Shown here in pieces: positions 5,949 to 27,643 of a DNA stretch of 64,000 nucleotides. The DNA lies in contig NZ_CP094288.1 of the NCBI RefSeq assembly GCF_022693705.1, forward strand, positions 263,185 through 327,184, read 5' to 3'. A model generated the notes under the pieces. The model ran no database searches. It was not told where the DNA came from and saw only the letters and a list, made by a program, of their open reading frames with translations. Each line of letters starts with the position of its first letter. The stretch's first letter is position 1. Both the position numbers and the translations under genes were made by a program. This stretch comes from Infirmifilum sp. NZ (GTDB lineage Archaea > Thermoproteota > Thermoprotei > Thermofilales > Thermofilaceae).

Positions 5949-6902
5949 TCATTTCTCCTGTCTAGCGACGAACGCCATGTAGGATGCTGTGAGGAACACG
6001 GCTGGGTACAGCAGCAGAACGGCTATGCCCGTCCACTGCCGAGCTAGCTCCTCGAGCGGGTTGAACTCACCGAACTCGTAGCCTATGGTCACCCTGCCGC
6101 CCTCCTCGGTTCTAACTGTGAATCGCGTCCCGAAGATTGGGTTAACGATGTCACTGAAGCGCTGGTTGGGGGAGAAGAACTGCATTGAAAAGGAGATGCT
6201 GATCGCCTTAGCGGTCCAGTTAGCGTAGGCCTCACCGATTTGAGTCACGTTGAGCGCCGTGGCGTTAGCGGGTAGCGGCGGTGGGCCTATGACTGCGTAG
6301 GCCACGAGTGTGGCGACGATCGGCAACACTATCGTGAAGAAGGCCCAGACCCCGAGGCTCAGGAGCAGGGAGTGGCTGGACCTCCTAGAGAGGACGGATA
6401 TGAAGAGGGAGATCGAGTAGTAGGCCATCGTGTACAGTACTGCCAGCAGGGTGAACACCAGCAGGCGGAGGACGTCGCCGGCCTCCATGCCGACGCCGAG
6501 GAAAGCGGCGGTTGCGACGGCGAGCAGGGACGCCGCAGTCATCGAGAACGCGGTGACCGCCAGGGCGGCGAGCATCTTGCTGGTCACGACGGTGTCACGG
6601 TAGACGGGGCGGGCCAGTATCAGCCTCAGAGTGCCCCTCTCCCTCTCGCCGCTCACGGCCGCGAAGCCCAGCGCTACGCCCAGCAGAGGCGCGGCGAGCT
6701 GCACGGCTTCCGCGATGCCTTGACCTATGCTCAAAAACAGCCGTACCCCAGTGGAGGTCTGCAAGAGCCTGAAGTTCTGGTAGACGAAGTAAACTTGTGT
6801 CACGTAGAGCGCCAGGAATATCCCCACCACCACCCAGAACCTCCTGCTCCTCAGCGCGTCGCTGAACTCCTTCCTAAATAGAACACTCAGCCCGCTCACC
6901 AT
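5949..6902 (-). CDS. ABC-2 type transporter permease
   Basis: The 317-residue membrane protein has an N-terminal cytoplasmic stretch (LFRKEFSDALRSRRFW) typical of ABC-2 permeases, a first membrane helix, an extracellular loop, and about five further helices. ERERGTLRLILARPV, the usual coupling region of this family, is near residues 85-100. It forms the membrane channel of an exporter with the ATPase encoded just upstream; their coding regions overlap by 7 bases. A large outside loop follows the fifth helix. The substrate is unknown; the neighbouring exported NEW3 protein suggests a surface or exopolymer role. Confidence 0.9.
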   Translation of the reverse strand: MVSGLSVLFRKEFSDALRSRRFWVVVGIFLALYVTQVYFVYQNFRLLQTSTGVRLFLSIGQGIAEAVQLAAPLLGVALGFAAVSGERERGTLRLILARPVYRDTVVTSKMLAALAVTAFSMTAASLLAVATAAFLGVGMEAGDVLRLLVFTLLAVLYTMAYYSISLFISVLSRRSSHSLLLSLGVWAFFTIVLPIVATLVAYAVIGPPPLPANATALNVTQIGEAYANWTAKAISISFSMQFFSPNQRFSDIVNPIFGTRFTVRTEEGGRVTIGYEFGEFNPLEELARQWTGIAVLLLYPAVFLTASYMAFVARQEK

Positions 6903-7834
6903 CCCGTACCACCCTGGTGCAGGCGGTAGGCGTCTTCCCAGGTCGGGCTCACCCGCACCACAGCCTCAACCCTCGCGCCGCACCTGGCGGCAACGCTCTC
7001 CACATCCCCTTCGACCTCGCGGAGCGCCGCAACCCTCACAACGGTGCCTGTAAGCCAGGCGGCGACACCTGGCTGGGAGCTCAGCTCCCTTGCCAGCGCC
7101 TCTGCGCCGGCGCTCACCCTGACCTCGTAGGCGCGTACCTGGCTCGTAAGCTCCTCCAAGCTACCCTGCGCCAGAATCCTCCCCTTCCTGATGATCGCGG
7201 CGTGGGTGCACACGCTCCCGACTTCCTGGAGCATGTGGGTAGAGAGCATGAGCGTTTTCCCCTTCCTCGCTAGCTCCCTCACCAGCAACCTGAACTGCGC
7301 GACGCCGTCCGGGTCGAGGCTAACGGTTGGCTCGTCGAGGATCAGGAGCTCCGGGTCCTTGAGCAAGGCTTGCGCAATGCCGAGCCTCTGCACCATCCCC
7401 CTGGAGAAGGCGGAGACCCTGGTGTTAGCCCGCTCGCCCAGCCCAACGAGCTCGAGCACCTCACGCGCCCTGGCCCTAGCCTCAGCCTCTGGGAGGCCGT
7501 CGAGCATCCCGAAGAAAACGAGGTTCTCGAGCGCGGTCATGTACTCGTAGAAGCCGAACCCCTCGGGCAGGAGCCCCACCTTTCTCCTCACCTCGAGGGA
7601 CTGCCTCACGGCGTCGAGCCCCAGGACCTTCGCTGTGCCGCTGGTCGGGAGCAAAAGGCCCACGAGAATCGAGATGAGGGTGGTTTTACCGGAGCCGTTG
7701 GGGCCGAAGAGGCCGAAGACGCTGCCCCGGGGGACTCTGAGATCGACTCCGTCGAGCGCCCTTACCTCCGACCTGCCCTCCCGGTAGACCTTGACCAGCC
7801 CCTGTGTTTCCACGGCTAGGTCCACGTGCATCAC
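6896..7834 (-). CDS. ABC transporter ATP-binding protein
   Basis: The energy-coupling subunit of the ABC-2 exporter. Walker A is GPNGSGKT at residues 44-51, the signature is SRGMVQ at 144-149, and Walker B is LLILDE at 163-168, followed by a switch His in STHML. After about residue 225 comes a C-terminal extension as seen in CcmA/DrrA-type exporters. The ATG overlaps the stop of the NEW3 gene by 4 bases, so the three genes are translationally coupled. Confidence 0.95.
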   Translation of the reverse strand: MMHVDLAVETQGLVKVYREGRSEVRALDGVDLRVPRGSVFGLFGPNGSGKTTLISILVGLLLPTSGTAKVLGLDAVRQSLEVRRKVGLLPEGFGFYEYMTALENLVFFGMLDGLPEAEARARAREVLELVGLGERANTRVSAFSRGMVQRLGIAQALLKDPELLILDEPTVSLDPDGVAQFRLLVRELARKGKTLMLSTHMLQEVGSVCTHAAIIRKGRILAQGSLEELTSQVRAYEVRVSAGAEALARELSSQPGVAAWLTGTVVRVAALREVEGDVESVAARCGARVEAVVRVSPTWEDAYRLHQGGTGW

Positions 7835-9630
7835 CTCCTACCGTACCTCCTGTAGACTATAAACGTTAGCGCTACCAGTATCAGGAGCGCCGCAGCGCCG
7901 ATGTAGACCGCTGTCCCGCTGGGCTTCACGTAGACGTGCAGAGGCCTCGCCAGGGCGGTCGCCTGATCCGGCGTTAGCTGGTCGGCTGAAGGCCTGAGGA
8001 GAATGTAGTAGTCTCCTGCGCTGACGTCCGACTGGGTGGTGATAGTAACAGTAAACGAGGCCGTCTCCTGGGGCTTGAGAATGAGGACTACGTCGGGGGA
8101 CACCGCTACCCAGAAGCCCTTCGGCACGCTGAGAGCCTCGAGCTTGAGGTTCGTGAGGGAGCTGTACCCGGTGTTCTTGACGACGACCTGGAAGGTGGAC
8201 TCCTGGCCGGCCGTGTTCTCGACGTAGAAGTTCTGGGTCTCGTAGCCGAGGCTGTAGCTGCCTAGTACTCCCAGGCCGAGCCGCAGGCTGGAGGTTGACC
8301 CGCTGGCGTTGGCCTCGAGGGTGAAGGAGACCGCGGTCGGCTCAGCTAGCGGCGGGACGCTCACCACCACCCTAACCTGCTTCTCCTCGCCCGCGCGCAG
8401 GTAGAGCCTAGAGACAACGTTCCCCGCGGTGTCTCTGATCTGCCACGTGAAGCCCGTGGGGAGCCCCGCAACCTTCAGATCCACCTCGCTGTCGCCGTCG
8501 CCCAGGTTTTTAGCGGTGACGGGGAAGCTCGCGCTCTGACCAGCGTAGGCGTCCAGGTGCGGCGTGTCGGTTTGAAGCCTGATGAGAGGTTGCCCCTTCG
8601 CGACGATAAGAGTTGTTTGAAGCTGCGTCACGAAGTAGGGTTGCACGCCCGTCAGGAGAACCGCCACCGTGTAGTTCCCCGGGGGCGTGCTTGAGGGGGG
8701 GCTGACTGCCACCCTCAATCTCAGCGCGTCTCCGGGCTTGAGGGAGACGCCTGTGAGCGGGCTACCGCTCGCCGCATCGACCAGGCTGACGGCCCACCCG
8801 CTGGGGGCGCTGACGGAAAGCAGGGCTGTGACCTCCCTGCCGAGCGTGTTCGACAGGGAGACCTCGAAGCTCGCGGTCGAGCCCGGCACCACCCTGATGA
8901 AACGGCTAGTGGTAGCCAGCAGCTGAGGGTCGGCGTGCTCGACGTGGAAGGTGATAACCCTCCTCTGAACAGTGTACCCTGATGCCGTTAACGTGACGTT
9001 GTACGTGCCTGAGGCGTTAAAGGGTATTTCGACCCTCAGCCGCAGGGTCTGCGACTGCCCGGGGCTCAGTGTTAGCACCCTAACCGCGACGTCGTCTAGG
9101 AGTAGGGCTGCGCTCCAGCCCTCGGGGGCCTTCACCTCGAGCGAGACACGCTCCTCGCGCGAGCCCCTCTCGTGCAGCGTAACCGAAACGGTGACCACAG
9201 AGAGGCACTTCGCCTCAACGCTCTCCACCTGAGGCGTAAGGGCAAGGCTGTAGCCCAGAGTGATGTCGCCGAGCTGCTGGTAGGAGGCTTCGCTGGGGAC
9301 GGTGAACGTGAACTCCCTCCGCTCGTAGCCGACCCTGTCGAACACGGCGGTGTAGACGCCAGGGTCAAGCATCGCAGTGAAGCCGCCTGTAGAGGAGGCC
9401 ACTGTCCGGAGGACGAATGCCCCGATGCCGCCGGCCGCGCCCGCGGAGTAGATTGAGACCTCCACTCCACCGATAGGCCTGCCCTCAGGGTCGACGACCC
9501 TCCCGTAGACGCTCACCTTGCCCCACTGCGCGAGCACCTGCAACGGCGAGGCTACGACAAGCACTAGTAGCAGCAACGCTAAGGGGAGTAAGCTTAAAGC
9601 GGTTTGATCGCGTTTAAGTGTGGAAACCAT
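7831..9630 (-). CDS. Exported NEW3-type repeat protein of the ABC operon
   Basis: A surface protein with a signal peptide (first about 35 residues, ending VLAQ), a carboxypeptidase-regulatory-like beta domain (VYGRVVDPEGRPIGGVEVSI), three or four Ig-like domains of the NEW3/alpha-galactosidase-associated type (GWAVSLVD, GFTWQIRD and GFWVAVSP are their recurring strand signatures), and one C-terminal membrane helix with a basic tail. The frame is open up to 9699, but a TATA box (GATAAATATTTG, minus strand) falls inside the longer version. The ATG at 9630 has AGGTGG in front and is preferred, giving 599 residues. It is the first gene of an operon with the ABC ATPase and permease. Such trios are recurrent in archaea; the exported protein may be the partner or cargo-handling part of the exporter. 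Confidence 0.85.
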   Translation of the reverse strand: MVSTLKRDQTALSLLPLALLLLVLVVASPLQVLAQWGKVSVYGRVVDPEGRPIGGVEVSIYSAGAAGGIGAFVLRTVASSTGGFTAMLDPGVYTAVFDRVGYERREFTFTVPSEASYQQLGDITLGYSLALTPQVESVEAKCLSVVTVSVTLHERGSREERVSLEVKAPEGWSAALLLDDVAVRVLTLSPGQSQTLRLRVEIPFNASGTYNVTLTASGYTVQRRVITFHVEHADPQLLATTSRFIRVVPGSTASFEVSLSNTLGREVTALLSVSAPSGWAVSLVDAASGSPLTGVSLKPGDALRLRVAVSPPSSTPPGNYTVAVLLTGVQPYFVTQLQTTLIVAKGQPLIRLQTDTPHLDAYAGQSASFPVTAKNLGDGDSEVDLKVAGLPTGFTWQIRDTAGNVVSRLYLRAGEEKQVRVVVSVPPLAEPTAVSFTLEANASGSTSSLRLGLGVLGSYSLGYETQNFYVENTAGQESTFQVVVKNTGYSSLTNLKLEALSVPKGFWVAVSPDVVLILKPQETASFTVTITTQSDVSAGDYYILLRPSADQLTPDQATALARPLHVYVKPSGTAVYIGAAALLILVALTFIVYRRYGRR

Positions 9631-9648
9631 CGTTCCACCTGCATCGAA

Positions 9649-9660
9649 CAAATATTTATC
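9649..9660 (-). promoter_or_regulatory. TATA box of the NEW3/ABC operon
   Basis: GATAAATATTTG on the minus strand lies about 20-30 bases upstream of the ATG at 9630 and decides the start codon of the first gene. Confidence 0.6.
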
Positions 9661-9754
9661 CCTTTTTACCTTTGCATCCAGAGTGGCACTTAAATGCATG
9701 GAACCACGCGCCTGTGCTCGCGTAGCGGGTTCTCCCTAGCCTCGCGTCGTAAAG

Positions 9755-10507: not shown

Positions 10508-10861
10508 GCCCGCCAGTCGCCTGCCACGCGCCCTCTCCTAGACACGGGGTACATCTATGAGCCGCGCTGAAGGCAGGGAGGCCTGTCGAGGGGAGACGAA
10601 TGCTTAAACCCCCCGGGGTTTGGGGTCGCCGGTGAGCCAGCTCAGCAGGGAGGTTCCCCGCTACAGGTGTGAATTCTCTAGGACGGGCTAGAAGCGCGAC
10701 TACCTAGGAGAGGAGTTGAGGCGGTGCCAAGTAGGTGTGGGTTCTCGTAAACAGCTTCAGGAAAAACCCCTGTGCCCCCTCTCTCGCTCTGTAATTAAAA
10801 AGCTAAGGTATTTACGGGCCTTATGTGAGTAGCATTAAGGCTGAGAGCGCGGGGGACGGGG
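10508..10861. other. Intergenic, no intact gene
   Basis: Only short open stretches occur. A plus-strand frame from about 10632 runs 19 codons to a stop and then continues open for about 45 codons, which suggests gene decay, but the family cannot be recognised. Confidence 0.35.
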
Positions 10862-11380
10862 ATGAGTTACCCGGAGAGCCGGAGAATAGCCCTGTTTCTG
10901 GAGAAGTACTTCGAGAGAGCCGAGGAGGCTCTTCTCGAGGCTTTGGCCTACATGTCGGGTTTGCTAGGAGGCATGAACGCAGAGAAGCTTGAGAGTAGTA
11001 TGTGCGGGTTCCTGGAGAGCTTGCCGCACGTGCTTATACACGAGGCCGCGCATGCCTATGCCGAGGAGCTTGCTGAAATCCCAGGAGCCAGTGTGGAGGG
11101 TAGGGCGCTCCTTGAGGAGGTTCTGGCTCACTTCATCGAGAGGAAGACCTCCGAGCTGCTTAAAAGGCACGGCTACAGCTGGGTGCTCGTGGAGAGCTTC
11201 GAGGAGCAGGTGAGAGAAATAGAGGAGGACCCTGACTTCGGGGGAGTCAAGATACCTGTCGAGCTCTACGCTATGCTCTACCGGGGGTTCGAGGAGTCCT
11301 TGGAGAAAGGTGAGCTAGCAAGCTTTGTGCGCGTTCTCGCTGAAAAGCTGGGCGCATCGAGCTCTCCTCGATATCCCTAA
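10862..11380 (+). CDS. Small zincin-like protein with HEAAH motif
   Basis: The 172-residue protein is helical and carries HEAAHAYAEEL at about residues 60-70, matching the HExxH zinc site of metallopeptidases. A helix with EEVLAHFIE about 25 residues later could supply the third ligand Glu, as in minigluzincin-type enzymes. There is no signal peptide or membrane helix, so it acts in the cytoplasm. The rest is unlike any family I can name. The ATG follows a purine-rich GGGGGACGGGG. It could be a small protease or a zincin-fold protein with another role; activity is not proven by the motif. Confidence 0.6.
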   Translation: MSYPESRRIALFLEKYFERAEEALLEALAYMSGLLGGMNAEKLESSMCGFLESLPHVLIHEAAHAYAEELAEIPGASVEGRALLEEVLAHFIERKTSELLKRHGYSWVLVESFEEQVREIEEDPDFGGVKIPVELYAMLYRGFEESLEKGELASFVRVLAEKLGASSSPRYP

Positions 11381-12057
11381 GCTGTGTTAGGGGGTAGGTG
11401 TAGTTGAGCCCGTGAAACGGCGGGCTCCTAAAGGAGGTTCCCGGAGCGCAAGTTAATAATGAGGTGGAGGAGTTAGACCCCGCTTATAGAATCAGAACTT
11501 GAGGGGGGCGTTGCTTTAGACGTGTAGACTCCGAAGACTGTTGACGTAAAGTTTGTGTAATCGCCACCCAGAGCCTCTCTAGTCAGGTAAACGTGCACCT
11601 CTCCTCCGGGGGGGCTATGAATGCCCCTTCACCGAGAGAGTACGCGAGGTACTTAAACTCCTGCAGACGTTTCGTGAGTTTAAGCCTGTAGCGCCTTTAT
11701 GGTTTTCGAATACTCCGCTACCTGTTCTTGGAAGACTTTATCGCTTTGTGTTATCAACTGCCCAGTCACTAGATACCTGCCTTGCGTTGCGCAGATTGTA
11801 AACCTTAAAGCATTACCGCCTAAGGCTATTGGCAGACGATCTGAGTGTTCTAATTGTTAATATAATGGTGAAGGTTTTTACTTAAGTGAGGAATCACATC
11901 AAGCGGAAGGACTTTTAGAGATTTTGACAAAGATATTATCCTTGAGTTTCATTAATTAATTACATTATCATCTAATAAAGGGTTAAATTTTTAATAAAAA
12001 ATATACATATTTATTATTAAACAATTCATAAAAGTAGGGTATCATACATTAAGGTGT
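11381..12057. other. Long intergenic region with gene remnants and an AT-rich end
   Basis: The first 450 bases hold degraded coding sequence, including the coiled-coil remnant listed separately. From about 11840 the sequence turns strongly AT-rich up to the alpha/beta hydrolase gene. CATAAAAGTAG near 12028 is a fitting TATA box for that gene. No origin-type repeats were recognised. Confidence 0.5.
11690..11761 (-). pseudogene. Remnant of a second DUF3782-like coiled coil
   Basis: On the plus strand this stretch reads GTAGCGCC...TACTCCGCTACCTGTTC...TATCGCTTTGTGTTATC and lines up base for base, with small gaps, to 10200-10276 inside the broken DUF3782-like gene (for example GTGCTCCGCTACCTGCTCC and GATCGCTTTAGTGTTATC). 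Only the coiled-coil part survives and the frame is shifted. Confidence 0.65.
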
Positions 12058-13836
12058 ATGACAAAAAATAAGAACCTGATTGCCGCCATTGCTTCTCTCG
12101 CTCTCGTCGTTATCTTCAGCTTTCTGGCATACCTCGTCATAACGGATTTCGGCTATGTAACAGTGCAGGATGTACGATTCTACGGACCCAACGGGGAAAT
12201 GATTAGCGCACACCTATACGTTCCTGCAGATGCTACAGCTCAGAACCCCGCACCTGGCGTGCTAGTGATTCATGGGTATAACAACCAGAAAGACTACATG
12301 ACGAATACAGCGTTAGAGCTTGCGCGGAGACGTTACGTTGTTCTCTCAATAGACATGACGGGTCATGGCTTCTCAGAGGGGGCTTCCGGATCATTCTCGT
12401 ATGGTGCCGTTGCAGGGTTAACCTACCTGCGTAGCCTCGCCTACGTTGATAAAAACAACATAGGTTTAGTTGGCATGTCGATGGGTGGGTGGGCTATACA
12501 GGCAGCAGCCCTTCAGATTCCCGACGGCTACAAGTCAATGTTTTACATGGACTCGTATGTTCTCCCCCCGACGCTGGCACCTAACTTGAAGAATGTAGCT
12601 ATCCAGATGGCATTCGCTGACGAGTTCACGCCTTACTGGCTACAAGTACCAACGGGGAATGATATCCCAAAATCGCCGGTTTTGAAGACTATCTTCGGGG
12701 TGAGCGAGGATATAATCCCTGGGAAAGTTTACGGTGACATCGAGAAAGGTACCGCTAGGATTCTCTACTCGCCACACATAGACCACGCCGCTTCAACAGA
12801 TGATCCCGAAAGCATCGGGAACGTCATAGAGTGGATGGGCATGACGCTTAAGGGCGGCAAAAGCATACCGAGGAATGATCTGATATTCCCGTTTAAGCAG
12901 CTCTTCACAAGTTTAGCTTTCATAGCCTCAATGGCATTCATCTTCTTCTTCGGATCATACCTGTTGGAGACAAACACCTTCCGCGACCTCGTCGGAGAGC
13001 TTCCAGAGTACAAGGGCTTTAAAGGAGCAGGGTACTGGATAGCCGCTCTAATAACCACAATCCTCGGCCCCTTAGTGTTCCTCCCATCATTCATCGAGTG
13101 GGGGATGAGCCCAATCCTGCTCAACATTTTCTTCCCGCAGGCTCCCACGAACAGGTACATGACCTGGATGGACACAGTTGCGTTAATCACGGTAATCCTG
13201 CTGTTAGTGTTCTATTACCTCTCGCTCAGGAAGAGCGGCTTCACACTAGAGCACACAGGCATCAAGAAGCCTGCAATGCATATCGCGAAAAGCTTAGCGT
13301 TTGCCGCGCTGACTCTTCTACCGCTTTACCTCACCGTGACGTACTGCTATGGTCTCTTCCGTACACCGATCACTCTAGCCGGCCTTCCCGAGCCCATCGT
13401 GCTTAGACCTATGAGCGCTGTAAGATTCAACTACATGTTCACTTACTACCTGCCTTTCCTGTTCTACTACCTCACGTTAGGCGTCCTCTTCACAGGGTTC
13501 CTGAGGTTCAGAGAGGGGCGGGCCAGCCTCTACATGGAAATGCTCATCAACTCGATCATCATTTCCCTGGGATCCATAGCGTTCCTGCTCTACTACTACG
13601 TACCTCTCTACACTGGAATGCCTCAGACTCTAACCTGGGCTTACGTGTTCGGAGGAGTGCCTCTTGCAATGATATACTACATTGTCGTACCTATACTGAG
13701 CATCATAGCTGTATGCGTCCTCACTTACTTCTACCGGAAAACCGGAAGCGTTTGGCCGGGTGTATTCCTCATCACCACTTTAATCGTCTGGTACAATGTG
13801 GCCTTCGCAGCCTTCCACATACCGATGCCACCCTGA
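12058..13836 (+). CDS. Alpha/beta hydrolase fused to a polytopic membrane domain
   Basis: The 592-residue protein begins with a membrane helix (residues 8-27), followed by an extracytoplasmic alpha/beta hydrolase domain: oxyanion-region VIHGYNN (71-76), DMTGHGFSEG (99-108), nucleophile elbow GMSMGG with Ser141, and a likely catalytic His at 240 or 243 (YSPHIDHAAS). From about residue 282 to the end come roughly eight membrane helices. The hydrolase part resembles dienelactone-hydrolase/peptidase types; the membrane part is not a family I can name. GC content is visibly lower than in the flanking genes and the upstream region is AT-rich, which suggests acquisition. AAGGTG precedes the ATG. The substrate, perhaps a lipid or peptide at the membrane, is unknown. 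Confidence 0.82.
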   Translation: MTKNKNLIAAIASLALVVIFSFLAYLVITDFGYVTVQDVRFYGPNGEMISAHLYVPADATAQNPAPGVLVIHGYNNQKDYMTNTALELARRRYVVLSIDMTGHGFSEGASGSFSYGAVAGLTYLRSLAYVDKNNIGLVGMSMGGWAIQAAALQIPDGYKSMFYMDSYVLPPTLAPNLKNVAIQMAFADEFTPYWLQVPTGNDIPKSPVLKTIFGVSEDIIPGKVYGDIEKGTARILYSPHIDHAASTDDPESIGNVIEWMGMTLKGGKSIPRNDLIFPFKQLFTSLAFIASMAFIFFFGSYLLETNTFRDLVGELPEYKGFKGAGYWIAALITTILGPLVFLPSFIEWGMSPILLNIFFPQAPTNRYMTWMDTVALITVILLLVFYYLSLRKSGFTLEHTGIKKPAMHIAKSLAFAALTLLPLYLTVTYCYGLFRTPITLAGLPEPIVLRPMSAVRFNYMFTYYLPFLFYYLTLGVLFTGFLRFREGRASLYMEMLINSIIISLGSIAFLLYYYVPLYTGMPQTLTWAYVFGGVPLAMIYYIVVPILSIIAVCVLTYFYRKTGSVWPGVFLITTLIVWYNVAFAAFHIPMPP

Positions 13837-13860
13837 GGATAAGTAACAATAATTTTTTTA

Positions 13861-14037
13861 CTATATTTTCCTCGCTTTTCTATCTTTTACGTATATTGCG
13901 CTGTAAGCCCTCTCCGACAGCCCTTTGAAGGAGCTGGGGTAGGCATGCCCGAGCTTAAGCGTGCGCCTGCAGTTAGGAGAACAGGGTGCGTGGTAGACGG
14001 CCCATAGTCCCCGTAGAGTTCGGGCATCCTGGGCCAT
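13861..14037 (-). CDS. Possible 58-residue protein, unrecognised
   Basis: An ATG at 14037 opens 58 codons to a TAG at 13861, with a TATA-like TAATTTAGG about 15-25 bases upstream. The product has a CSPNC motif and a basic C terminus (YVKDRKARKI). I do not recognise it; it could be a real small protein or the end of a decayed gene. Confidence 0.25.
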   Translation of the reverse strand: MAQDARTLRGLWAVYHAPCSPNCRRTLKLGHAYPSSFKGLSERAYSAIYVKDRKARKI

Positions 14038-14321
14038 GTAAGCTACAAATGCTCCTAAATTAGGCTAAATGTTCAAAAGGTGCACGCCGGATTGAGGGTC
14101 AGGACGCTATGCTAAGGATAAACGCCGATAATGCTTTCGACGGAGCCTTAAAGGCGTAGCTGATGTGTGCCCCCACGTGAAGACTGGAGAGCATTTCTCT
14201 TCTCCAGCAGGGTGATGGGGCATTGCGCAGTTAAGGGAGCCATACTTTAGAGCCGGGCTTGGAGCTGCCCATAAACCTCTCCAGTGTGCCGAAGGCTGAG
14301 CGAGAATGGCAGGTTAGTGAT
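14038..14321. other. Intergenic, nothing recognised
   Basis: No coding or RNA signal is evident between the possible small gene and the end of the MFS transporter. Confidence 0.4.
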
Positions 14322-15840: not shown

Positions 15841-16218
15841 ATGGAGCAGATAACTGTTCTTTTCAGTGGAGCGGCTGGAGACGGCGTGAGGAGCCTCGGG
15901 GTAACCTACGCACGGGTATTGTCGAGGTGGGGCTGGCACTCCTTCGTCTACGACGACTACCAGAGCCTGATCAGGGGTGGGCACAACTTCTCAATAGTCA
16001 CAACCAGGAGAGGTGAGCGCATGTTCGCCCACTGGGACACCGTCGACGGCATCGTCGCCCTCAACCAAGACACCGTCGACAGACACCTCGGAAGGCTACG
16101 CGACAGCGGGTTCATGGTCTACGACTCCGACGCGGTCAAGAATCCGCCAGGCAAGGGGCTCGCGGGCGACCACCCGCAACCCCGCCTCAGGGAAATCATT
16201 GAGGAGAGGTGGCTGTAG
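15841..16218 (+). pseudogene. Truncated 2-oxoacid:acceptor oxidoreductase (gamma domain)
   Basis: The 125 codons match the N-terminal part of the gamma domain of 2-oxoacid:ferredoxin oxidoreductases: FSGAAGDGVRSLG near the start, then DDYQSLIRGGHNFSIV and DGIVALNQDTVDRH. In archaea this domain is about 180 residues and is often fused to the alpha subunit to give some 600 residues. Here it stops at LREIIEERWL, and the following sequence is full of stops. No alpha or beta subunit gene follows; superoxide reductase does. A truncated, non-functional remnant is the simplest reading. Confidence 0.72.
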
Positions 16219-18443: not shown

Positions 18444-18681
18444 AGTTGCTTGCTGACGTACATGCTACCCATTGAGCGCGAACCTGTAAGCACACCCACT
18501 GAAGAATCGCAGAATTTCAAGCCTAAAACTGCGCGCCAGCCTTCACGAGTACTGTAAGAATGGTCACCTTCGTTGAGGCGCCCTTGGGCCTAAGATTCTG
18601 TTTTTGAGATGCTCGGTGGATTCCTTGAGGGCTTTAATGACGCGCATAAAGGTTTAATAATGCTAAAAAGGTTTAGTATTT

Positions 18682-19179
18682 GTGAAGTGCGACCAAGCTT
18701 TCGCTGAAGCGTTGTCAATCCTTTTCAGAAGAGGGTTCATCACCTACGAGTCCCTCAGGGAGTCTTACGGGCCCTGCGCCCTGCCCGTTTTCAACCGCCT
18801 GCTGAGGTCGGGGCTCGCGGTGAAGGCCTCGCGGGGGCTCCTCGTGTCGGCCGACACCAGGGGCTTCCAGGTCTCAGACCTCAAGGCGGCCATCGAGCTC
18901 TGCAACGGGAGGGGCGACTGCGTCTACGAGCTCCTGAGGACTTCCGCCCGCGAGGCGGACAGGGTGATCAGGACCCTGGTGAAGGTGGGCGCGCTGAGGG
19001 TTGAGGGCGTGAGCGGAGATTACCTGGCTTTATGGCTCGAGTACGGCTGGCCGTCGGAGGTCCTCGCTGAGAGGGTTAAGGGCGAGTGGCAGAGGCACTT
19101 CGCGTTCGCGGGGCCCAAGGCAGTGATGGTGCGCCCCCCTTGGGCCGTGGAGGGGGCGGTGGTCAGGGTTGAGCGCTGA
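18682..19179 (+). CDS. Small winged-helix-like partner of the NTPase
   Basis: The 165-residue protein is not a family I recognise. Its first 70 residues look like a winged helix (AFAEALSILFRRGFITYESL, then a recognition-like helix and a short hairpin AVKASRGLLVS), and a second helical repeat follows. The GTG start lies about 25 bases after GGTTTAATAAT. The end overlaps the next gene by 11 bases, so the two are almost certainly co-expressed. It could sense or bind DNA for the NTPase, or act as regulator or antitoxin. This is inference from layout. Confidence 0.6.
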   Translation: MKCDQAFAEALSILFRRGFITYESLRESYGPCALPVFNRLLRSGLAVKASRGLLVSADTRGFQVSDLKAAIELCNGRGDCVYELLRTSAREADRVIRTLVKVGALRVEGVSGDYLALWLEYGWPSEVLAERVKGEWQRHFAFAGPKAVMVRPPWAVEGAVVRVER

Positions 19180-20950
19180 GAAAGGCGGGGAGCGGCGCTG
19201 CGACGCTGAGAAACTTCTGGAGCTGCTGAGGCTCACGGCCTCGGAGCAGGACCTCCAGCTGGGCGCCCTCGCGGACTGCGGCTACGTGCTGACAACCAGC
19301 CACCTGAAGGTAAGGGAGTTGATAAGGGAGGCTGAGAGCGGTTTCGGCCCCAAACCTCTGATCTTGGTTTACGGCGAGGCTGGGACGGGTAAATCGTTCC
19401 TGGCTAGGAGTACTCAGCTGGAGCTTCTCACGGAGGCGAAGTCTAAGATCGAGAGGAGGAAGAGGGGTGAGTGCACCGGGCCCGTGATACTGCCAGTGTA
19501 CGTGAACCTCGCTAAGATTAGGGTTGAGAACGCGGGGGACCAGGCATACTTGATCAGCAAGGTCTCTGAGGCCATCGAGAGCGAGACGCTGAACGCGCTG
19601 GCAAGAGTGTTCACAGACTCCGTGGACTTCGACCAGCTGAGGAGGCTCACCAACCTCCTGCACGAGGTGAAGAGCCACATTACCCACAACCCGGCACTTC
19701 TCCCCGCGTTCTTCTCGCTGCTGAGGCTCGGCGAGCTCAGCTACTTCATAATCCTCGACGAGCTGACCAGCGTCGTCGGCGACATAGACAGCAAGGAGGG
19801 GTTTGAGAGGCTAAAGGCCGTGGTGTTCGACGGCGTGGTCAGGCAGTGGAGGGAGTCACTCGGGGATATCTTGGCAGGTTTCATGGTGATCCTACACCTC
19901 TACAGCAAGGGGTCTTTGGAAATCCTGAGGGACCACATCGAAGGAAAGATCACCGCCTACGCGGGAGGCCTCGAGAGGTTCAGACTTGAAGAAATAGGCA
20001 TGGATAATATTATGCCCGTCTCGGACGAAGCCGTGATCAATTGGCTCGGAGGTGCTGGCATTAGCAACCAGTGGGTAGCCTGGACATACAGGGAAATTGT
20101 TTCAAACCACAAGTTCAGGTTCGGGAGCATGTTCCTGGAGTGGTACTTGAAGCTGAGGAGGGGGCGTGGCACTGCGCAATCACTCGCGGGACTGCACCAG
20201 GAGGCGTCCCGGAGGCTCGAGGGCATGATCGCAGAGGCGCTCGCCGAGGAGCTCAGGAATAGGGGCTTCAGCAAGCCCGTTAAGAGCCAGCACGCTGTCG
20301 GCAACCTGAGGTGCGACATCTTCGTGGACGATGTGTGCATCGACGTGAAGGTCAAGGGAGACCCCTCGACGGTTGCGAAGGAGGCTTACGAGGACTGGGT
20401 GAGGCTGGGTCGTGATGCTCAGCGGTACCGGCTCGTCTACGCGGTGGTGTCCGACCAGGCGGTGCAGCTTTCCCTTAAGGAAATACCGGGGGCAGTCGTC
20501 GTCCCGGTGGAGGTTCCCGAGCTGGACACGATCTACGAGGCCCTCGTGCTCGCGGAGAAGAGCGTTAAGGGCGAAGAGGCCTCCCGCTCAACGCCGCGAC
20601 TGATCCCGCTCCTCGCCCCAAGGCCCGAGGTGGACTTCCAGAAGCTGTTCCTGAGACGGGTCGCCAATGTGGCCGCTGCGCGTATCGCTGAATTGATAAC
20701 GCAAAAGCCCAGCGCCGTTTCGTACGACGTCACCGTCTACAACCTCGTTAAAGAGGACTGCAGGAAGCTCAACGGCAGATCTCGCACCGATTGGAAGAAC
20801 GCGCCCTCCCTTAAGAAAGTTTTCGGGAAGCAACTGAGGTACGCTCAGGACGTCGACAAAGCGGTTGAGGAAGTGAACAAGAGGATCGCCGGCAGCGGCT
20901 TAAAGCTCGTGGTTACCGGGACGAGCGTACGCTGCATGGAAGAAAAGTGA
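19169..20950 (+). CDS. P-loop NTPase with nuclease-like C-terminal domain
   Basis: The 593-residue protein has Walker A GEAGTGKS at residues 69-76 and Walker B FIILDE at 193-198, as in AAA/STAND-type ATPases. After a helical region, residues about 350-400 look like a PD-(D/E)XK nuclease core: a helix with EALAEEL, then CDIFVDDV and IDVKVKG, giving Asp383, Asp392 and Lys394 in the expected order. The last 130 residues are of unknown fold. The start is TTG inside the end of the upstream gene. NTPase-nuclease fusions are common in defence and in mobile-element ATPases; the function here is inferred. It is not the usual archaeal ATPase plus DUF234 pair. Confidence 0.65.
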   Translation: MSAEKGGERRCDAEKLLELLRLTASEQDLQLGALADCGYVLTTSHLKVRELIREAESGFGPKPLILVYGEAGTGKSFLARSTQLELLTEAKSKIERRKRGECTGPVILPVYVNLAKIRVENAGDQAYLISKVSEAIESETLNALARVFTDSVDFDQLRRLTNLLHEVKSHITHNPALLPAFFSLLRLGELSYFIILDELTSVVGDIDSKEGFERLKAVVFDGVVRQWRESLGDILAGFMVILHLYSKGSLEILRDHIEGKITAYAGGLERFRLEEIGMDNIMPVSDEAVINWLGGAGISNQWVAWTYREIVSNHKFRFGSMFLEWYLKLRRGRGTAQSLAGLHQEASRRLEGMIAEALAEELRNRGFSKPVKSQHAVGNLRCDIFVDDVCIDVKVKGDPSTVAKEAYEDWVRLGRDAQRYRLVYAVVSDQAVQLSLKEIPGAVVVPVEVPELDTIYEALVLAEKSVKGEEASRSTPRLIPLLAPRPEVDFQKLFLRRVANVAAARIAELITQKPSAVSYDVTVYNLVKEDCRKLNGRSRTDWKNAPSLKKVFGKQLRYAQDVDKAVEEVNKRIAGSGLKLVVTGTSVRCMEEK

Positions 20951-21085
20951 GGCCGCACGGCCTCTAGGGATTTATCTGCGGGGAAAGCGAGCGCTAATAG
21001 GCATTGAAGCCTCTAAGAGCGCAGGTGAGATTGAGGGCTCGAATTGATTAAACTTAGAAAGGCCTAAAGGATGCGTGGTTCCTGC

Positions 21086-21643
21086 CTAGGGGCAACGGCA
21101 CCCTAGGCAGTCTAAGAATTCTTTGAAGGAAGGGTTCTTGCCGTAGAGAGACCCGCAATTCACGGCTACAAGCTCCGCGTACCTCGGAAGCTCCCATTTG
21201 CCGTAATTCCTACTCTCTTCACGCTGCAGGTACTGGGAGAGCACCTCTGAGGGCTTCTGACCCCTTCCTACCCCGAGCCCAAGAGAGTGGCAAATCCACT
21301 CCTCAATTTCGCTCTCAACCACCACGATTCGCACCTTACTCCGCACCTCTCTTCTCCTGTCCTCGTCTCGGATGTCGTCGATGTGCTCTTCAATTCTCCT
21401 TCGGACGTCACTGGGGTTCCAGTCTCCGTCGACGAGAACGACAACCCTATCATGGTCATGCGTAGAGCTCAAAAGCTGCCTCGTACTCTTCGTGTTACAG
21501 GGCCCAGCGAACCTCTTGATCACACCTACCTGATGGGACGGCTGGAGCTTCGCTAGAAGCCTTTCGATGAACTCCTTCCCGTACGCGTCCTCGACGAATA
21601 CAGCTATCCTGCCCGACGTAGCCTTGGAGCCCCCCATAGCCAC
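21086..21643 (-). CDS. TOPRIM-type nuclease partner of the ATPase
   Basis: The 185-residue protein has TOPRIM hallmarks: a Glu in VFVEDAYGKEF (Glu18) and a DxD in VVVLVDGDWNP (Asp72 and Asp74), with a further acidic patch ESEIEEW near residues 110-116. Together these can hold the two metals of a nuclease. It is encoded directly after the ATPase with a 40-base overlap (34 if the second ATG at 21637 is used). In OLD-type systems both domains form one protein; in PARIS-like and related two-gene defence systems they are separate, as here. I infer a defence role from this pairing. Confidence 0.68.
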   Translation of the reverse strand: MAMGGSKATSGRIAVFVEDAYGKEFIERLLAKLQPSHQVGVIKRFAGPCNTKSTRQLLSSTHDHDRVVVLVDGDWNPSDVRRRIEEHIDDIRDEDRRREVRSKVRIVVVESEIEEWICHSLGLGVGRGQKPSEVLSQYLQREESRNYGKWELPRYAELVAVNCGSLYGKNPSFKEFLDCLGCRCP

Positions 21644-22914
21644 CTCTCGCTGAGAGTTATACCCAGCTCACGGAGCTCTCTCTTCACCTGCTCCGGGTCC
21701 TCGAAGACCTTGAAAACCGTCCCCTCTCTCCCCATCTCGGCGATGATCAGCTCCTGAGGATCGACGATGTCAACCGCGGCTGGGCTGTGTGTGGTCGCGA
21801 TCACTGTTGTGCCGCTCGACTTGAGGAGGTCTATCACGAGCTCGATCCATTCAGGGTGTAGCGAGTCTTCCAGCTCGTCGATCGCTAGGATGGAGGGCTT
21901 AAGCTGGAGAGCGGTGAGCATCGCCAGTAGCTTGTGCACCCCGTCGGGCATGCAGGGCGGGGGCAGCCTGAGATCCCCGTTAACGAGCTGGGCGAAAACC
22001 CTGCCATCCTGGGTGAGGTCGAACCTTAGCTCGTAGCCCCCAAGGGCCATAGAGAGCACGTCTGCCACCATTTCAGGGAGCCTGTTCTCCCTCAGGAATA
22101 GGTTGTAGAGAACCACGTAAAGGTTCCTGCCATCGCTCTCCAACTTCTGTGTCTTCATGTATTCCTGGGGTTTTCTGATTTCCTGAACGTTTAGGTGTCT
22201 TAATATAGTAATCTTCTCAATCATGTTCGAGAGTCTACGAGCAGTTTCAAGGACTAAAATACGGGTTCGACCCGTATCAGGATCAACGACATCTGGTGAA
22301 TAGAGTCCGGTAGAATTCAAAATATTACCTTCTTTTGTTCGAATCTCAGACTTTACAGGTAAGGGAATCTTCCATATTTCCTTTGATACTTTTTGAATAG
22401 AATACTTAATGGGATACACTGATATACATGAGAGGAATCGCAGGAAGAAGCGTTGGGAGTCAAGCCTGATACTAAACTCTTCAGCTACGTCCACTTTGGA
22501 CCCGAGGCGGCTTAGGAAGCCTTCCTCGTAGCTCACCCTGAGCACATTCCCAGCTCTCTCCAGCGTGCCCCACCCGCTAATTCTCAGCACTTCGCGCTCA
22601 ACCCTAAACGCGCCTCCCGCCACGTTGCACGTTAGCTCGTAGCTTCCGGTAGAGACGGGTGACTGGAAGCTGAAGCCGAAAGTCAGGGGCAAGGTCTCAT
22701 CGCGCATCCACACCACGTTCTCCGGGCTCCACCACTTCCTCCAGGGTCTTGAGAAGCCCTCGGCCGTAAAGGCGTCTCTGAAGAACTCCAGCGCTTCGAT
22801 GAGGTTGGTTTTCCCAGAGCCGTTAGGACCTACAACGAGGTTGAAGCTACGGAGGCTTAGTTTAACGTCACGAAGGCTTTTAAAGTTCCTTACCCAAAGC
22901 TCCGTAATTCGCAT
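21604..22914 (-). CDS. OLD/AAA15-type ATPase of a two-gene defence-like module
   Basis: An SMC/ABC-like ATPase of 436 residues. It begins with ITELWVRNFKSLRDV, the usual N terminus of AAA15/OLD proteins. Walker A is GPNGSGKT (29-36), and toward the end come a Walker B strand AIDELEDSLHPEW (about 341-353) and the switch TTHSPAAVD. No TOPRIM domain follows in this protein; it is encoded by the next gene. The part between about 22170 and 22470 is much richer in A and T than either end, so the middle may be replaced or relaxed. The ATG at 22914 follows a short AT-rich spacer. It likely senses a trigger and controls the TOPRIM partner. Confidence 0.8.
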   Translation of the reverse strand: MRITELWVRNFKSLRDVKLSLRSFNLVVGPNGSGKTNLIEALEFFRDAFTAEGFSRPWRKWWSPENVVWMRDETLPLTFGFSFQSPVSTGSYELTCNVAGGAFRVEREVLRISGWGTLERAGNVLRVSYEEGFLSRLGSKVDVAEEFSIRLDSQRFFLRFLSCISVYPIKYSIQKVSKEIWKIPLPVKSEIRTKEGNILNSTGLYSPDVVDPDTGRTRILVLETARRLSNMIEKITILRHLNVQEIRKPQEYMKTQKLESDGRNLYVVLYNLFLRENRLPEMVADVLSMALGGYELRFDLTQDGRVFAQLVNGDLRLPPPCMPDGVHKLLAMLTALQLKPSILAIDELEDSLHPEWIELVIDLLKSSGTTVIATTHSPAAVDIVDPQELIIAEMGREGTVFKVFEDPEQVKRELRELGITLSERWLWGAPRLRRAG

Positions 22915-23022
22915 GAGGTCTGACTACAATACCTTGAATTACCCACTTAAGCCTTTTCCCTCTTTGGAAACTTAAGGTAGCTATACCGCTGGCAGGTCAT
23001 CTCATAATAAGGATTCTACCAG

Positions 23023-23925
23023 TTAGCCTGTGAGAGCTCTTAGAATAGCGGTCAGGGCTTTATCGCTCAGCGTGACGGTGACCGAGTACACACCCGGGGG
23101 TAGCTTCAGGAGGTATGCTCCCTCGAAGTACGGTCCCTTGGCCCTCAGCTCCAGCGGGAACTCCTCGACCACTTCGTCGCCCTCAACTCTGAGCTTCGCC
23201 TGCATGGCGCCCTCTGCCCCTCCCGGGACGTAGACCCAGACTAGGAGCTTGAAGCTCGCCAGTCCGTCCTCGCCCGCCTTTGAGGAGAGCCCGTCGACCT
23301 GCACGGCGTAGCTCCTGGTTGAGCCGTTGAAGGGGATCCACTCGGGCGCCTCGGGTGGCTCGGGGAGCTCCTCCAGCTCTGCGTTCTCCCCGAGAGAGTA
23401 CCTCAGCGTGATCCTGACCTTGAGGTCCCCGCTTGACTGCCAGGAGACCCTCAGCCTAGCGCTGTACACTCCCTTCTCGATAAGCATTGGGGCGTCGAAC
23501 CCAGGGATGAGCATCATGACCCTGAAGCACTCCATCCCACTCGCGGCGATGCAGGGCATTTCTACCTTGTAGCTCCGGGCGGAGCCCTCGAGCTCGAGGG
23601 TTGCGCTCAGTATGAAGCGGGCGTTCCCGGACAGCAGCTGGACCTCTGGTTTGAATATAACGTTCGAGCTCTCCGAGAAGTTGATGCTGCCGAGGCTCAG
23701 CACCTCCTCCCCTCTCCCAGCCGTCAGCGTGAGCTCCGAAGACGGGCAGGCGTTTCCCGGGGAGTGAATCCCATGAGTGGGGTTCGAAGCCCCCGGGGAA
23801 GCTGGGCTCCTCTGAGAGGCGTGACCCCCAGGGAGGGGTTCTGGGAAGAAGGCAAGGAGGATGAACAGCGAGGCGAGGGCTGCCAAAACGGGCGCCAGCA
23901 CCAGTACTAGGGTTCTTGCCCTCAT
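23023..23925 (-). CDS. Secreted hypothetical protein
   Basis: I do not recognise the family. The product of about 300 residues begins with a signal or anchor segment (RTLVLVLAPVLAALASLFIL), then a Pro/Ser/Gly-rich linker, then beta-rich sequence with no C-terminal membrane helix. The open frame reaches 23994, but the ATG at 23925 is preferred: it puts the hydrophobic segment at the very start, and a TATA-like TAAGTTTAATGG lies about 25-30 bases before it. It is probably exposed outside the membrane; its role is unknown. Confidence 0.65.
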   Translation of the reverse strand: MRARTLVLVLAPVLAALASLFILLAFFPEPLPGGHASQRSPASPGASNPTHGIHSPGNACPSSELTLTAGRGEEVLSLGSINFSESSNVIFKPEVQLLSGNARFILSATLELEGSARSYKVEMPCIAASGMECFRVMMLIPGFDAPMLIEKGVYSARLRVSWQSSGDLKVRITLRYSLGENAELEELPEPPEAPEWIPFNGSTRSYAVQVDGLSSKAGEDGLASFKLLVWVYVPGGAEGAMQAKLRVEGDEVVEEFPLELRAKGPYFEGAYLLKLPPGVYSVTVTLSDKALTAILRALTG

Positions 23926-24108
23926 CGAGCTGGCAAGCAGGGTTGGTCCCATTAAACTTAGCGTAGCTTTGATACGTATCCTCGCGACAGCCACGGCTCA
24001 CAGGTGCAACCTAGAGGGAGATACGCGTAAACCTCTGAGAAAGCCACCGGACAGGGGGTCGAGTTCCGGCGCTTTGGTAGAGGCATTGGGTGGCTGTTCA
24101 CGCCTTGG

Positions 24109-25587
24109 TTAGAGCTCAGCATGCCATGCGATTCTCAGTTCCTCTCTCGGCGCTACGTCTGTCGCTATGTCGAATGTTGTTTTGGTGATGTTCTCGACCC
24201 ACAGCCTTCCTGGTGGAGGTGATAGTGGTGTTACCAGGATTCTGCTGGGCGCTGATGCTAGGCGGTGCTCCACTCTCGTCCTGGTCTCCCAGGCCGGTAT
24301 GACCGCAGTCCCACCGTTTTCGGTGAAAAGCACGAGCCCTCCCCCGAGTTCTGAAAAAGTTTTGAGCGGTGAAGGCCTGTCGACGACCAGCAGCCCTGCG
24401 TAGGCGTGGTGTCTACCAGCGCAGTTGAATGCTAGCGCTCTAGACTTGTGGATCCTACCGTCTTGGCTTACTGAGCACACCGTGCAGTGAGTCGTGTCGC
24501 CCGTGATGTTCTCCGCTCTCCCCACATCCGTATCCCTTGTGTACCCGAACACAACGCCGTAGTCTGCGACCACGTGCCCATCCCTGACAACTGTTGAAGG
24601 AGCTGTGTCTACGAGTTTAACCCCCACGGTACGGTCGGAGCCTGTCTTGGGCATCCTGATCGTGAAACCGCTCAGATGGAACTCTGCACCCTCCAGGCGT
24701 AGCCCTACGAGCTCCCCCCGAGGGCTCGGAGGAAACTTTGAGACGTATACGTGTATATCGCTCAGGTTGAAGTAGATGCCGTGGCTGAGGCTTATCACTG
24801 GGAATGCCTGCGGCTCCACTACAACCACGTTCCTGATGTCCCCGTTACCGTTATAGTTCGTCACTACGGTCCCCTCGGGCGACGAGGCCAGTACTCCATC
24901 CACCAGGACACCCCTGATAGCCCTGTCCTCTGGCGCCGATATGTGTACGCCGCGGCGGGTTCTGTAGAGAAACACGTTGCGCACAACAGCCTGCTCAACA
25001 GCGTCGACGACTACAGCACCGGCTGAACCGTCTCCGCCGACGTTGTAAGCCCTCACATTTTCTATGTAGGCGTACTCGCTGTAAGGCGTCGAAACCTCTC
25101 TTCCAGCGGCGTACCGGATAAACCTATTGTTGCCGATGTATATACCGTCAAGCCTCTGGTTCCTTAGAACCACGTCTCTAACTACGATCCCGCACCTACC
25201 GCTCGTAAGCATGAAGCCGCTCCCATCTCTGTACGGAACGGTTTGAAGCGAACAGTCGAACACGCCGCCAAGCCAGTAGAACCCCGCTTCACCGACGAGA
25301 ATCCCTATACTCACGTCAACAGGCTTGAACACCGCACGAGGATTGGCGACAACCCTGACGTCGCTACGGACGACGACGGAGTAGCTGTACTCGTCCCCGC
25401 TCTCAGGGTCCACAAATGAACCCCTTCGGTTCAGCACGTACTCCCCTGCATCGACGTAGACTTCACCGCATCTATCGAACGCGTGCTGAATAGCCTCGGC
25501 AGCGTTTACTGAACTAAATACGATGGTATCAGATCCTCTATCCATGACGTAGGTCTTCCCATCAATCTTCGAGACAACACATACCAT
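24109..25587 (-). CDS. Right-handed beta-helix (pectate-lyase-fold) protein
   Basis: The 492-residue protein has the N-terminal pattern of pectate-lyase-like and tail-spike proteins: NAAEAIQHAFDRCGEVYVDAG, then many short repeating strands with stacked V/I and N (VVVRDVVLRNQRLDGIYIGNN). Proteins of this fold bind or cut polysaccharides. No catalytic triad can be assigned and no signal peptide is visible, which is odd for a polysaccharide enzyme. The longest frame starts at 25680, but TTTTTATGCTTTT inside it looks like a TATA box, so the ATG at 25587 is preferred. The last residues (LRIAWHAEL) resemble a remnant at 26696-26815. It may derive from a virus or be a sugar epimerase-like enzyme. 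Confidence 0.65.
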   Translation of the reverse strand: MVCVVSKIDGKTYVMDRGSDTIVFSSVNAAEAIQHAFDRCGEVYVDAGEYVLNRRGSFVDPESGDEYSYSVVVRSDVRVVANPRAVFKPVDVSIGILVGEAGFYWLGGVFDCSLQTVPYRDGSGFMLTSGRCGIVVRDVVLRNQRLDGIYIGNNRFIRYAAGREVSTPYSEYAYIENVRAYNVGGDGSAGAVVVDAVEQAVVRNVFLYRTRRGVHISAPEDRAIRGVLVDGVLASSPEGTVVTNYNGNGDIRNVVVVEPQAFPVISLSHGIYFNLSDIHVYVSKFPPSPRGELVGLRLEGAEFHLSGFTIRMPKTGSDRTVGVKLVDTAPSTVVRDGHVVADYGVVFGYTRDTDVGRAENITGDTTHCTVCSVSQDGRIHKSRALAFNCAGRHHAYAGLLVVDRPSPLKTFSELGGGLVLFTENGGTAVIPAWETRTRVEHRLASAPSRILVTPLSPPPGRLWVENITKTTFDIATDVAPREELRIAWHAEL

Positions 25588-25815
25588 GGGGTCCTGTACC
25601 GAAAGGCCTGCACCCAAACAAAAGCATAAAAATTGCTGCTGTGGAGACTCATCGAGATCTCCGACGCAGGTCTCCACCAAGTGGTTTTCAGGCTAAAGCT
25701 TTTACAGTGTCTTGCAGTATTAGAAGTATAGGCTTAAGGCGTTTTTGTTGCTTCGCGCCAAGGAATCGCCTCATGCTCGGGGCGATAGGCTTACCATGGC
25801 CTACGTGCGTACTTA

Positions 25816-26649
25816 CTAGTGTACCTTGGATTTTTTAAACTGCCTGTAGGTTATGGTCAGGAAAATAACCCAGCCAACGCCCATAGCCATGATTATAGCA
25901 TTTTCTGGACATTTAAGTATGCTCATCACATTCATTGTAAAATCCTGTGACCCGTGGAATAATGTAGGACAGTAAATATCGCCGCACTTTCTACGCAATA
26001 ACCCGAAGTATATACCTACAAAGCAGCTTATTAGCACCCACACCACAGCACCAGCATCAAGGCTATACTTTCCAGTGAGAGGATTGGCATATCTAACCAA
26101 ATGAACAGCCCCGAAGATTATGCCACTCACTATAGGAGATGCATCATGGCCTATGGCCCTGTTTAGAGACCCTAGCACATACCCCATGAAGAAAAGCTCT
26201 TCGCAGAGAGCATTAGACACAAAATTAATGACTAGAGCATCAGCAAGTATGTATACGTTGAGTCTACTGGTCTCGAGCGAGACCAGCCCCGACGCATTGA
26301 GAATGCTGACAAAGGCGAGAGCGGGGACGCACACACTCATCGAAAGATAGAGGCCCCAGTAGAGGCTATACCGTGGATTGGGTGAAATGATGCCGGCTTC
26401 AGCTAAACTAAGCTTGGAGGCGATTATACCCAGGAAGGCGAGCACTACCAGGATTGTGTGGGTGAGCCTACTTCCAAGGTGAGGGTCTCTTACGTAGATT
26501 GGCTCGGAAATCCACACTACCACAGCTTGGACGATAGTAAGCAGAACTGGCAGAACAACATAGAGGGTTTTTCTCCCAGCGGTTTTACCTTGAAGCGCGG
26601 GCTCTTTTTGGGTACTAGCCTCCCCCTTCCCAACCCCCATGGATGCCAC
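25816..26649 (-). CDS. CPBP-family intramembrane metalloprotease
   Basis: A 277-residue membrane protein of about eight helices. The three CPBP (CAAX/ABI) motifs are present: the Glu pair in CEELFFMGYVLG (150-151), His183 in FGAVHL, and His232 in PTLFHGSQDF. These side chains form the active site of Rce1-like proteases, which cut within or near the membrane. The Arg normally found after the Glu pair (EExxxR) is not present, so motif 1 is degenerate. GC content is clearly lower than in flanking genes, a sign of transfer. In bacteria relatives give immunity to bacteriocins; no peptide gene was found here. Confidence 0.85.
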   Translation of the reverse strand: MASMGVGKGEASTQKEPALQGKTAGRKTLYVVLPVLLTIVQAVVVWISEPIYVRDPHLGSRLTHTILVVLAFLGIIASKLSLAEAGIISPNPRYSLYWGLYLSMSVCVPALAFVSILNASGLVSLETSRLNVYILADALVINFVSNALCEELFFMGYVLGSLNRAIGHDASPIVSGIIFGAVHLVRYANPLTGKYSLDAGAVVWVLISCFVGIYFGLLRRKCGDIYCPTLFHGSQDFTMNVMSILKCPENAIIMAMGVGWVIFLTITYRQFKKSKVH

Positions 26650-26980
26650 CCTGCGGGGGAGACATCACTACCTCTACTCCGCCACCATATATTGATTGCT
26701 TTTCGAAGACGGGAGGAAGATCTCGTTCGAGGCCGTGTACTCCTTCAACGTCTCGGACCCTGTTCACCTAGTAGCTAGTTGGAGAGCCGAGCTCAACTCC
26801 CCGGCACTCTTATAATTTTGTTGCAAGAGAGAGCCAGTCCCACCCCCCACGTAAATACTGAGAAAGTTCCAGTAAAAGCTCAAAGATTATTTTCTCGCCG
26901 AGCTCCTCGAACTAGTAGAGCACCCCTTACGAGCAGCCCGAAGTTCGGTGAGCGGGGTTGAAGGTCGGAATGATTGCCCG
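26650..26980. other. Intergenic with a coding remnant
   Basis: Apart from the remnant at 26696-26815 no coding signal is seen. The rest, up to the end of the next gene, appears to be non-coding. Confidence 0.4.
26696..26815 (+). pseudogene. C-terminal remnant resembling the beta-helix protein
   Basis: After a TGA the frame stays open for 39 codons and ends in a stop. It encodes EDGRKISFEAVYSFNVSDP and then VHLVASWRAELNSPALL. The W-x-AEL ending and preceding strand pattern match the end of the beta-helix protein on the other strand (REELRIAWHAEL). No start codon is available, so it is read as the tail of a deleted relative. Confidence 0.4.
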
Positions 26981-27643
26981 CTACTCTATTACGTGACCGC
27001 AGACGACTTCTATCCCCAGCTCCCCTGCTCTCTCGTAGGCCTCCCTATCCACGTTGACGGCGACGAGAATCGTCCTGGCCACCTGCTTGCCCAGGACCTT
27101 GCCGACTACCTGAGACTTCAGGGGTAGCGCTTCGACGTGCTCCAGCTCAGCCCTAGACTTGACCTCGATCACGTAGACCTTCTCGTCTTCAACCAATACG
27201 TCTACGTCGACAACCCTGCCCTTGACGCCGGTTAGGCTGCCGTCCTCGTCCCTCAGCCTCAGCTTCCGCACCTTGCCCGGCTCGATGCCCCTCTTCTCCA
27301 GAGCTTCCCGGAAGATCTCCAGGACCATCCGCTCGAGGTCCTCCCCCCACCTCCTGCCCATGCTCCCGATCGTGACCTCGACCCTTGCGTTCAAGCGGTT
27401 GAACTCCCTCCACAGCCGCTCCTGCCCCTTGAGGAGCTCAGCCAGAACCTTATCCACCCGGTTGAACTCCTCCCTTAGCTGCCTAATCTCAGCCAGGATC
27501 TCGTTGAATTTCCGGTCGTGCTCCTCAAGCCTCTTCAATACGTCGAGGTAGCCGAGGATGCCGGCTACAGTGTACCTGAACTCCTCGTCCTCCATCAGAA
27601 GCCTGAGTAGCTGCTCTCTGAGCTCCGCGCGCGAGACAGGCAA
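26981..27643 (-). CDS. DUF3782-like coiled-coil protein with nuclease-like domain
   Basis: The 220-residue protein begins with LMEDEEFRYTVAGILGYLDVL, nearly the same as the start of the broken gene at 9755-10450. A coiled coil of about 70 residues (Leu/Glu/Arg heptads) follows. The C-terminal domain is of the PD-(D/E)XK type: DVDVLVEDEKVYVIEVKS with the Asp and Glu-x-Lys in order. The start is TTG after AAGGGG; TTTAAAACGGG just upstream may be part of the promoter. Proteins of this kind are multi-copy in Thermoproteota and their role is not known; a nuclease in DNA maintenance or defence is a guess. Confidence 0.75.
   Translation of the reverse strand: MPVSRAELREQLLRLLMEDEEFRYTVAGILGYLDVLKRLEEHDRKFNEILAEIRQLREEFNRVDKVLAELLKGQERLWREFNRLNARVEVTIGSMGRRWGEDLERMVLEIFREALEKRGIEPGKVRKLRLRDEDGSLTGVKGRVVDVDVLVEDEKVYVIEVKSRAELEHVEALPLKSQVVGKVLGKQVARTILVAVNVDREAYERAGELGIEVVCGHVIE

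Follow-up and report, generated by a model that had tools for sequence, protein, structure and literature searches.

Two predicted nuclease gene pairs, probably independent, at a strain-variable site of an archaeal genome

Two convergent pairs of overlapping genes

The window (the whole 64,000-nucleotide stretch of DNA that we analysed) comes from a genome assembled as a single 1.83-Mb contig. The features of the locus are:

18640-18681, + strand: A/T-rich promoter-like stretch (AAAGGTTTAATAATGCTAAAAAGGTTTAGTATTT), conserved, upstream of the GTG start of the winged-helix gene
18682-19179, + strand: winged-helix protein, 165 aa; module A, putative partner or regulator of the NTPase
19169-20950, + strand: P-loop (STAND/AAA_16-like) NTPase with a central PD-(D/E)XK domain, 593 aa; module A
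21086-21643, - strand: predicted stand-alone TOPRIM nuclease, 185 aa, with E18 and D72xD74; module B
21604-22914, - strand: ABC/OLD-type ATPase, 436 aa; module B
19171-23047, no strand: segment that differs from strain NZ13 (NTPase, TOPRIM and ATPase genes); nucleotide homology ends at 19171 and resumes at 23048

The four genes, their overlaps and their catalytic residues lie where the original prediction placed them. The map of open reading frames also bears out its two coupled pairs: the genes overlap within each pair, by 11 nt (winged-helix protein and NTPase) and by 40 nt (ATPase and TOPRIM), and the pairs are convergent. We compared the locus with Thermofilum sp. NZ13 (NDWX01000001.1; G177), which is of the same species, and with G159, a more distant species that carries relics. 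The winged-helix gene is conserved in NZ13, the NTPase has a full-length homologue, and the ATPase and TOPRIM proteins have homologues across Thermoproteota, so these are not chance open reading frames. The TTTAATAAT...GTTTAGTATTT motif of the promoter-like stretch is preserved in NZ13, and this stretch is probably the TATA box of a leaderless transcript. At the locus we found neither a tRNA nor a match to Rfam, and flanking repeats were not obvious.

A winged-helix protein and an NTPase with a nuclease core

The winged-helix protein had no match in Pfam, PADLOC, NCBIfam or PHROGs. In its AF2 model, the first winged helix has block pLDDT values of 66-89, and the sequence suggests a second one. 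A Foldseek search with this model returned mostly winged-helix proteins, none of them significant.

In the NTPase, the Walker A motif (GEAGTGKS in the window, GEAGxGKS across the alleles) and the Walker B motif (IILD) are conserved. The Walker B motif of the NZ13 protein has DG instead of DE, without an acidic residue after D197. In Pfam the protein matched AAA_16 at 6e-6, which is under the curated cut-off, and otherwise gave weak, generic P-loop matches; nSTAND models matched it only at 0.02-0.2. Among the systems tested, then, the first pair matches no named one, as the original prediction had said.

The same prediction had described a PD-(D/E)XK-like domain with Asp383, Asp392 and Lys394. 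These residues and G378 are conserved in the window and NZ13 alleles, and the AF2 model fits: residues 339-427 form a core with H-E-E-E-H-E order, in which D383 lies in the second strand and D392-x-K394 in the third. The model was built with two sequences, and its mean pLDDT is 43.6, with low confidence outside the nuclease core; blocks over residues 340-455 reach about 60-78. We assign this domain to PD-(D/E)XK at the level of motif and topology only. Foldseek found no significant match for the model in the PDB, and the weak, non-significant matches include RecE, XPF and arenavirus nucleases, which are PD-(D/E)XK proteins. Residues of about 519-593 look winged-helix-like in the predicted secondary structure (helices, then two strands).

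Similar combinations of parts are known. In Avs and other STAND systems, a single chain combines a P-loop NTPase with a PD-(D/E)XK nuclease, as does the module A protein, and the two might work alike. However, the order in module A is NTPase, nuclease and then winged-helix-like domain, without a long repeat sensor, and no PADLOC Avs model matched it. The archaeal ATPase_2 (PF01637) - winged helix - DUF234 proteins also combine NTPase, winged-helix and PD-(D/E)XK-like parts, but in another order, and the module A protein lacks the combination of PF01637 and DUF234. A profile comparison with this family aligned only the Walker A region, and there was no PF01637 match. The window also encodes a DUF3782/PDDEXK_10 nuclease-family protein (26981-27643, - strand), which is 97% conserved in NZ13. 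A comparison with the nuclease domain of the NTPase showed no relation.

In our searches module A is confined to Thermofilum: two pairs are intact, and a third genome carries a nuclease-dead relic. A profile search of 398 Thermoproteota genomes found no relatives of the NTPase beyond the window, NZ13 and G159, and less sensitive searches of GTDB contigs, IMG/VR, phages and plasmids found none beyond NZ13; across these searches, two short matches to the Walker A region (L031 and L032) were disregarded. Distant relatives could be missed because the pattern scans use short conserved peptides. The winged-helix gene has the same distribution: it was detected only in the window and NZ13, plus a relic in G159. 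Both genes are absent from the other genomes searched, they overlap in both intact loci, and in G159 their relics are no more than about 4 kb apart. That the two genes are coupled is suggested by two intact copies from one genus.

Replacement of the NTPase allele between strains

The region is collinear in NZ13. In 100-bp bins, the winged-helix gene and the flanks are mostly 88-97% identical, apart from the intergenic DNA that precedes the winged-helix gene (80-84%). The winged-helix proteins are 90% identical, with a dN/dS of 0.20. Homology breaks off two bases past the start of the NTPase gene (19171) and sets in again within the following gene (23048). Between these breakpoints, NZ13 carries one NTPase alone, without the ATPase and TOPRIM genes. 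The two NTPases align over their full length with 41% identity, and their composition differs: the NZ13 allele has 41% G+C (GC3 of 0.42) versus 59% (GC3 of 0.79) for the window allele.

What G159 retains of the NTPase is a C-terminal relic of 216 aa that lacks the Walker motifs and the nuclease residues; a short relic of the winged-helix gene is located about 3.5 kb away. Across shared columns, the window NTPase is closer to the G159 relic (54%) than to the protein from NZ13 (36%), although NZ13 is of the same species. The simplest reading of these sequences is that NZ13 received a foreign NTPase allele while the winged-helix gene stayed. An exchange exactly behind a conserved gene for a regulator or partner would fit a conflict (defence) system.

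In G159, the NTPase relic adjoins a degraded copy of the 26981-27643 gene (L029 9013-9417), in the same relative orientation as in the window. An ATPase_2-like NTPase gene (L029 10364-11767, - strand) directly adjoins the truncated relic; the arrangement looks like the displacement of one NTPase gene by another. In the window, the variable segment is bordered on the right by the 3' end of another gene (23023-23994, - strand); this gene has no family matches, and diverged copies are present in most of the genus.

An archaeal ATPase/TOPRIM pair

The second pair had been described as an OLD/PARIS-like ATPase and TOPRIM module with Glu18, Asp72 and Asp74 in the TOPRIM protein, and this description holds up. 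The ATPase matches AAA_21 (3e-29) and AAA_15 (9e-20) in Pfam, and its family profile matches PtuA, OLD and AriA structures in the PDB. The TOPRIM protein from the window has no Pfam match of its own, and a profile built from the TOPRIM alignment had no credible match in the PDB. Members of its family match RloB, DUF4276, MAD4 and HEC-01B. In an alignment of 10 members, the TOPRIM triad is conserved: E18 in 9/10 (D in the other), D72 in all 10, and D or E at position 74 in all 10. Of 300 Thermoproteota genomes, 10 have the TOPRIM protein, each with the gene for a matching ATPase next to it; the ATPase gene in one (G226) appears to be frameshifted. With an adjacent ABC/AAA_15/AAA_21 ATPase and TOPRIM protein and an E...DxD/E triad, module B is a new archaeal instance of the already known split OLD-type pair.

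Several named systems resemble module B. Like PARIS (AriA/AriB; class 4 OLD), it has an ABC-type ATPase adjacent to a TOPRIM protein, and the ATPase has a match of 3e-28 to the AriA model. However, none of the 10 TOPRIM members has DUF4435 or matches an AriB model, so module B is not PARIS proper, and HEC-01A outscores AriA. Of the PADLOC models, the one that the ATPase matches best is HEC-01A (4e-33), from the candidate system HEC-01A/HEC-01B; HEC-01B is matched by several TOPRIM members, at up to 1.6e-6, and only weakly by the one from the window (7e-4). For MADS, the ATPase matches MAD3 from NCBIfam (5e-24) and the TOPRIM protein matches MAD4 from PADLOC (1.5e-8), but the NCBIfam scores are far below the cut-offs (85 versus 420 bits for MAD3, 25 versus 160 bits for MAD4) and the annotated neighbours include none of the other MADS genes, so we do not consider module B to be MADS. 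Judging from these profile matches, module B appears to be closest to HEC-01A/B, MAD3/4 and RloB.

Two copies of module B (L050 and L051) lie a few genes from a terminase large subunit gene, with a tail gene near L050, and one further copy adjoins an IS607-type resolvase. These neighbours suggest that module B is mobile, and the pairs at L050 and L051 are possibly carried by proviruses. By analogy with PARIS, MAD3/4 or HEC-01, the ABC-type ATPase probably holds or activates the predicted stand-alone TOPRIM nuclease. Module B need not be defensive: Cran1, the one archaeal OLD protein that has been characterised, has a cell-cycle function and apparently no part in defence (PMC12796447).

Two modules at one variable site

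The original prediction had also joined all four genes into one defence island. Adjacency and the convergent layout in the window speak for a single four-gene system. However, the site in NZ13 has the winged-helix and NTPase genes without the ATPase and TOPRIM genes, and the other nine ATPase/TOPRIM loci have no winged-helix or NTPase genes. By the refuting condition that the prediction itself had set, this contradicts a single island, which we now consider very improbable, and leaves the individual pairs standing. We propose instead, with a probability of about 0.6, that two nuclease modules, independent of each other, occupy one strain-variable site.

Other segments of the window are absent from NZ13 or different there (5724-9732, 10843-14287 and 24060-26705). 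The genes annotated in the variable segments are an ABC transporter set, an esterase-like hydrolase, glycosidase-type genes and a CAAX protease, which are not defence genes, so there is no defence island around the locus; the segments also hold a 523-aa protein with no Pfam match. The surroundings of the locus are metabolic genes rather than other defence genes, and the whole stretch is a strain-variable zone that is not specific to defence. We also noticed a 125-aa fragment of a pyruvate:ferredoxin oxidoreductase gamma-type (POR) domain (15841-16218, + strand), which is short in NZ13 as well; other matches in the genus are in open frames of about 567-663 aa.

A possible role for module A

Could module A be a defence system? 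In the reading that we favour, the winged-helix protein most likely binds DNA (its own conserved promoter, its target, or both), and the NTPase would be a nucleotide-dependent switch that licenses the PD-(D/E)XK domain to cut DNA upon a signal of invasion. The logic would be STAND/Avs-like or restriction-like. Under pressure from viruses or plasmids, a distant NTPase allele would be swapped in while the winged-helix partner and its promoter are kept. Going further, we suggest, tentatively and at well under even odds, that module A represents a novel archaeal defence system of two genes, in which exchangeable NTPase-PD-(D/E)XK effectors work with a winged-helix protein that is conserved. For both modules, DNA binding, nuclease activity, the trigger and a role in defence are inferred; the case for defence draws on the types of parts, the patchy occurrence of the genes, their decay in one species and the replacement of an allele.

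Module A could instead be a toxin-antitoxin-like pair, with the winged-helix protein acting directly as the antitoxin to a toxic NTPase-nuclease. The small upstream gene for a putative DNA-binding protein, which overlaps a predicted nuclease gene, speaks for this, and an AbiEi antitoxin is among the non-significant structural matches of the winged-helix protein. However, a neutralising interface would be expected to change along with the toxin, and the winged-helix protein stayed constant while its partner changed, so we consider a direct antitoxin role unlikely. We also think it unlikely, to a similar degree, that module A is no pair at all, with the winged-helix gene being a conserved flank and the NTPase unrelated cargo. 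The winged-helix gene does lie within a conserved block, and homology ends at the start codon of the NTPase, but the genes overlap in both intact loci and share a narrow distribution, down to the relics in G159.

Somewhat less likely again is that module A is a replication, maintenance or transposition remnant of an integrated element. Plasmid and transposon proteins also contain P-loop NTPase, nuclease and winged-helix parts, and the genes are patchy, with one foreign-looking allele and one locus reduced to a relic. However, integrase, primase and capsid genes are absent from the annotated neighbours, and module A had no match in phages, plasmids or IMG/VR.

In the dataset of PMC12796447, OLD classes 3 and 4 (class 4 being the split form) were restricted to bacteria, in contrast to the ten split archaeal ATPase/TOPRIM pairs described here. 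The parts of module A are known; their arrangement is unnamed and restricted to Thermofilum, with only two intact examples. A 2026 survey found that Thermoproteota generally have a lower prevalence of known defence systems, except for RM, CRISPR-Cas and argonautes (PMC12988326), so an unnamed nuclease pair with strain-level replacement of the effector is a useful candidate. Module A deserves testing because the partner is fixed and the nuclease changes. If our tentative defence reading is true, the winged-helix gene, together with its promoter, would serve as a fixed platform for docking, and the effector alleles behind it would be exchanged from strain to strain.
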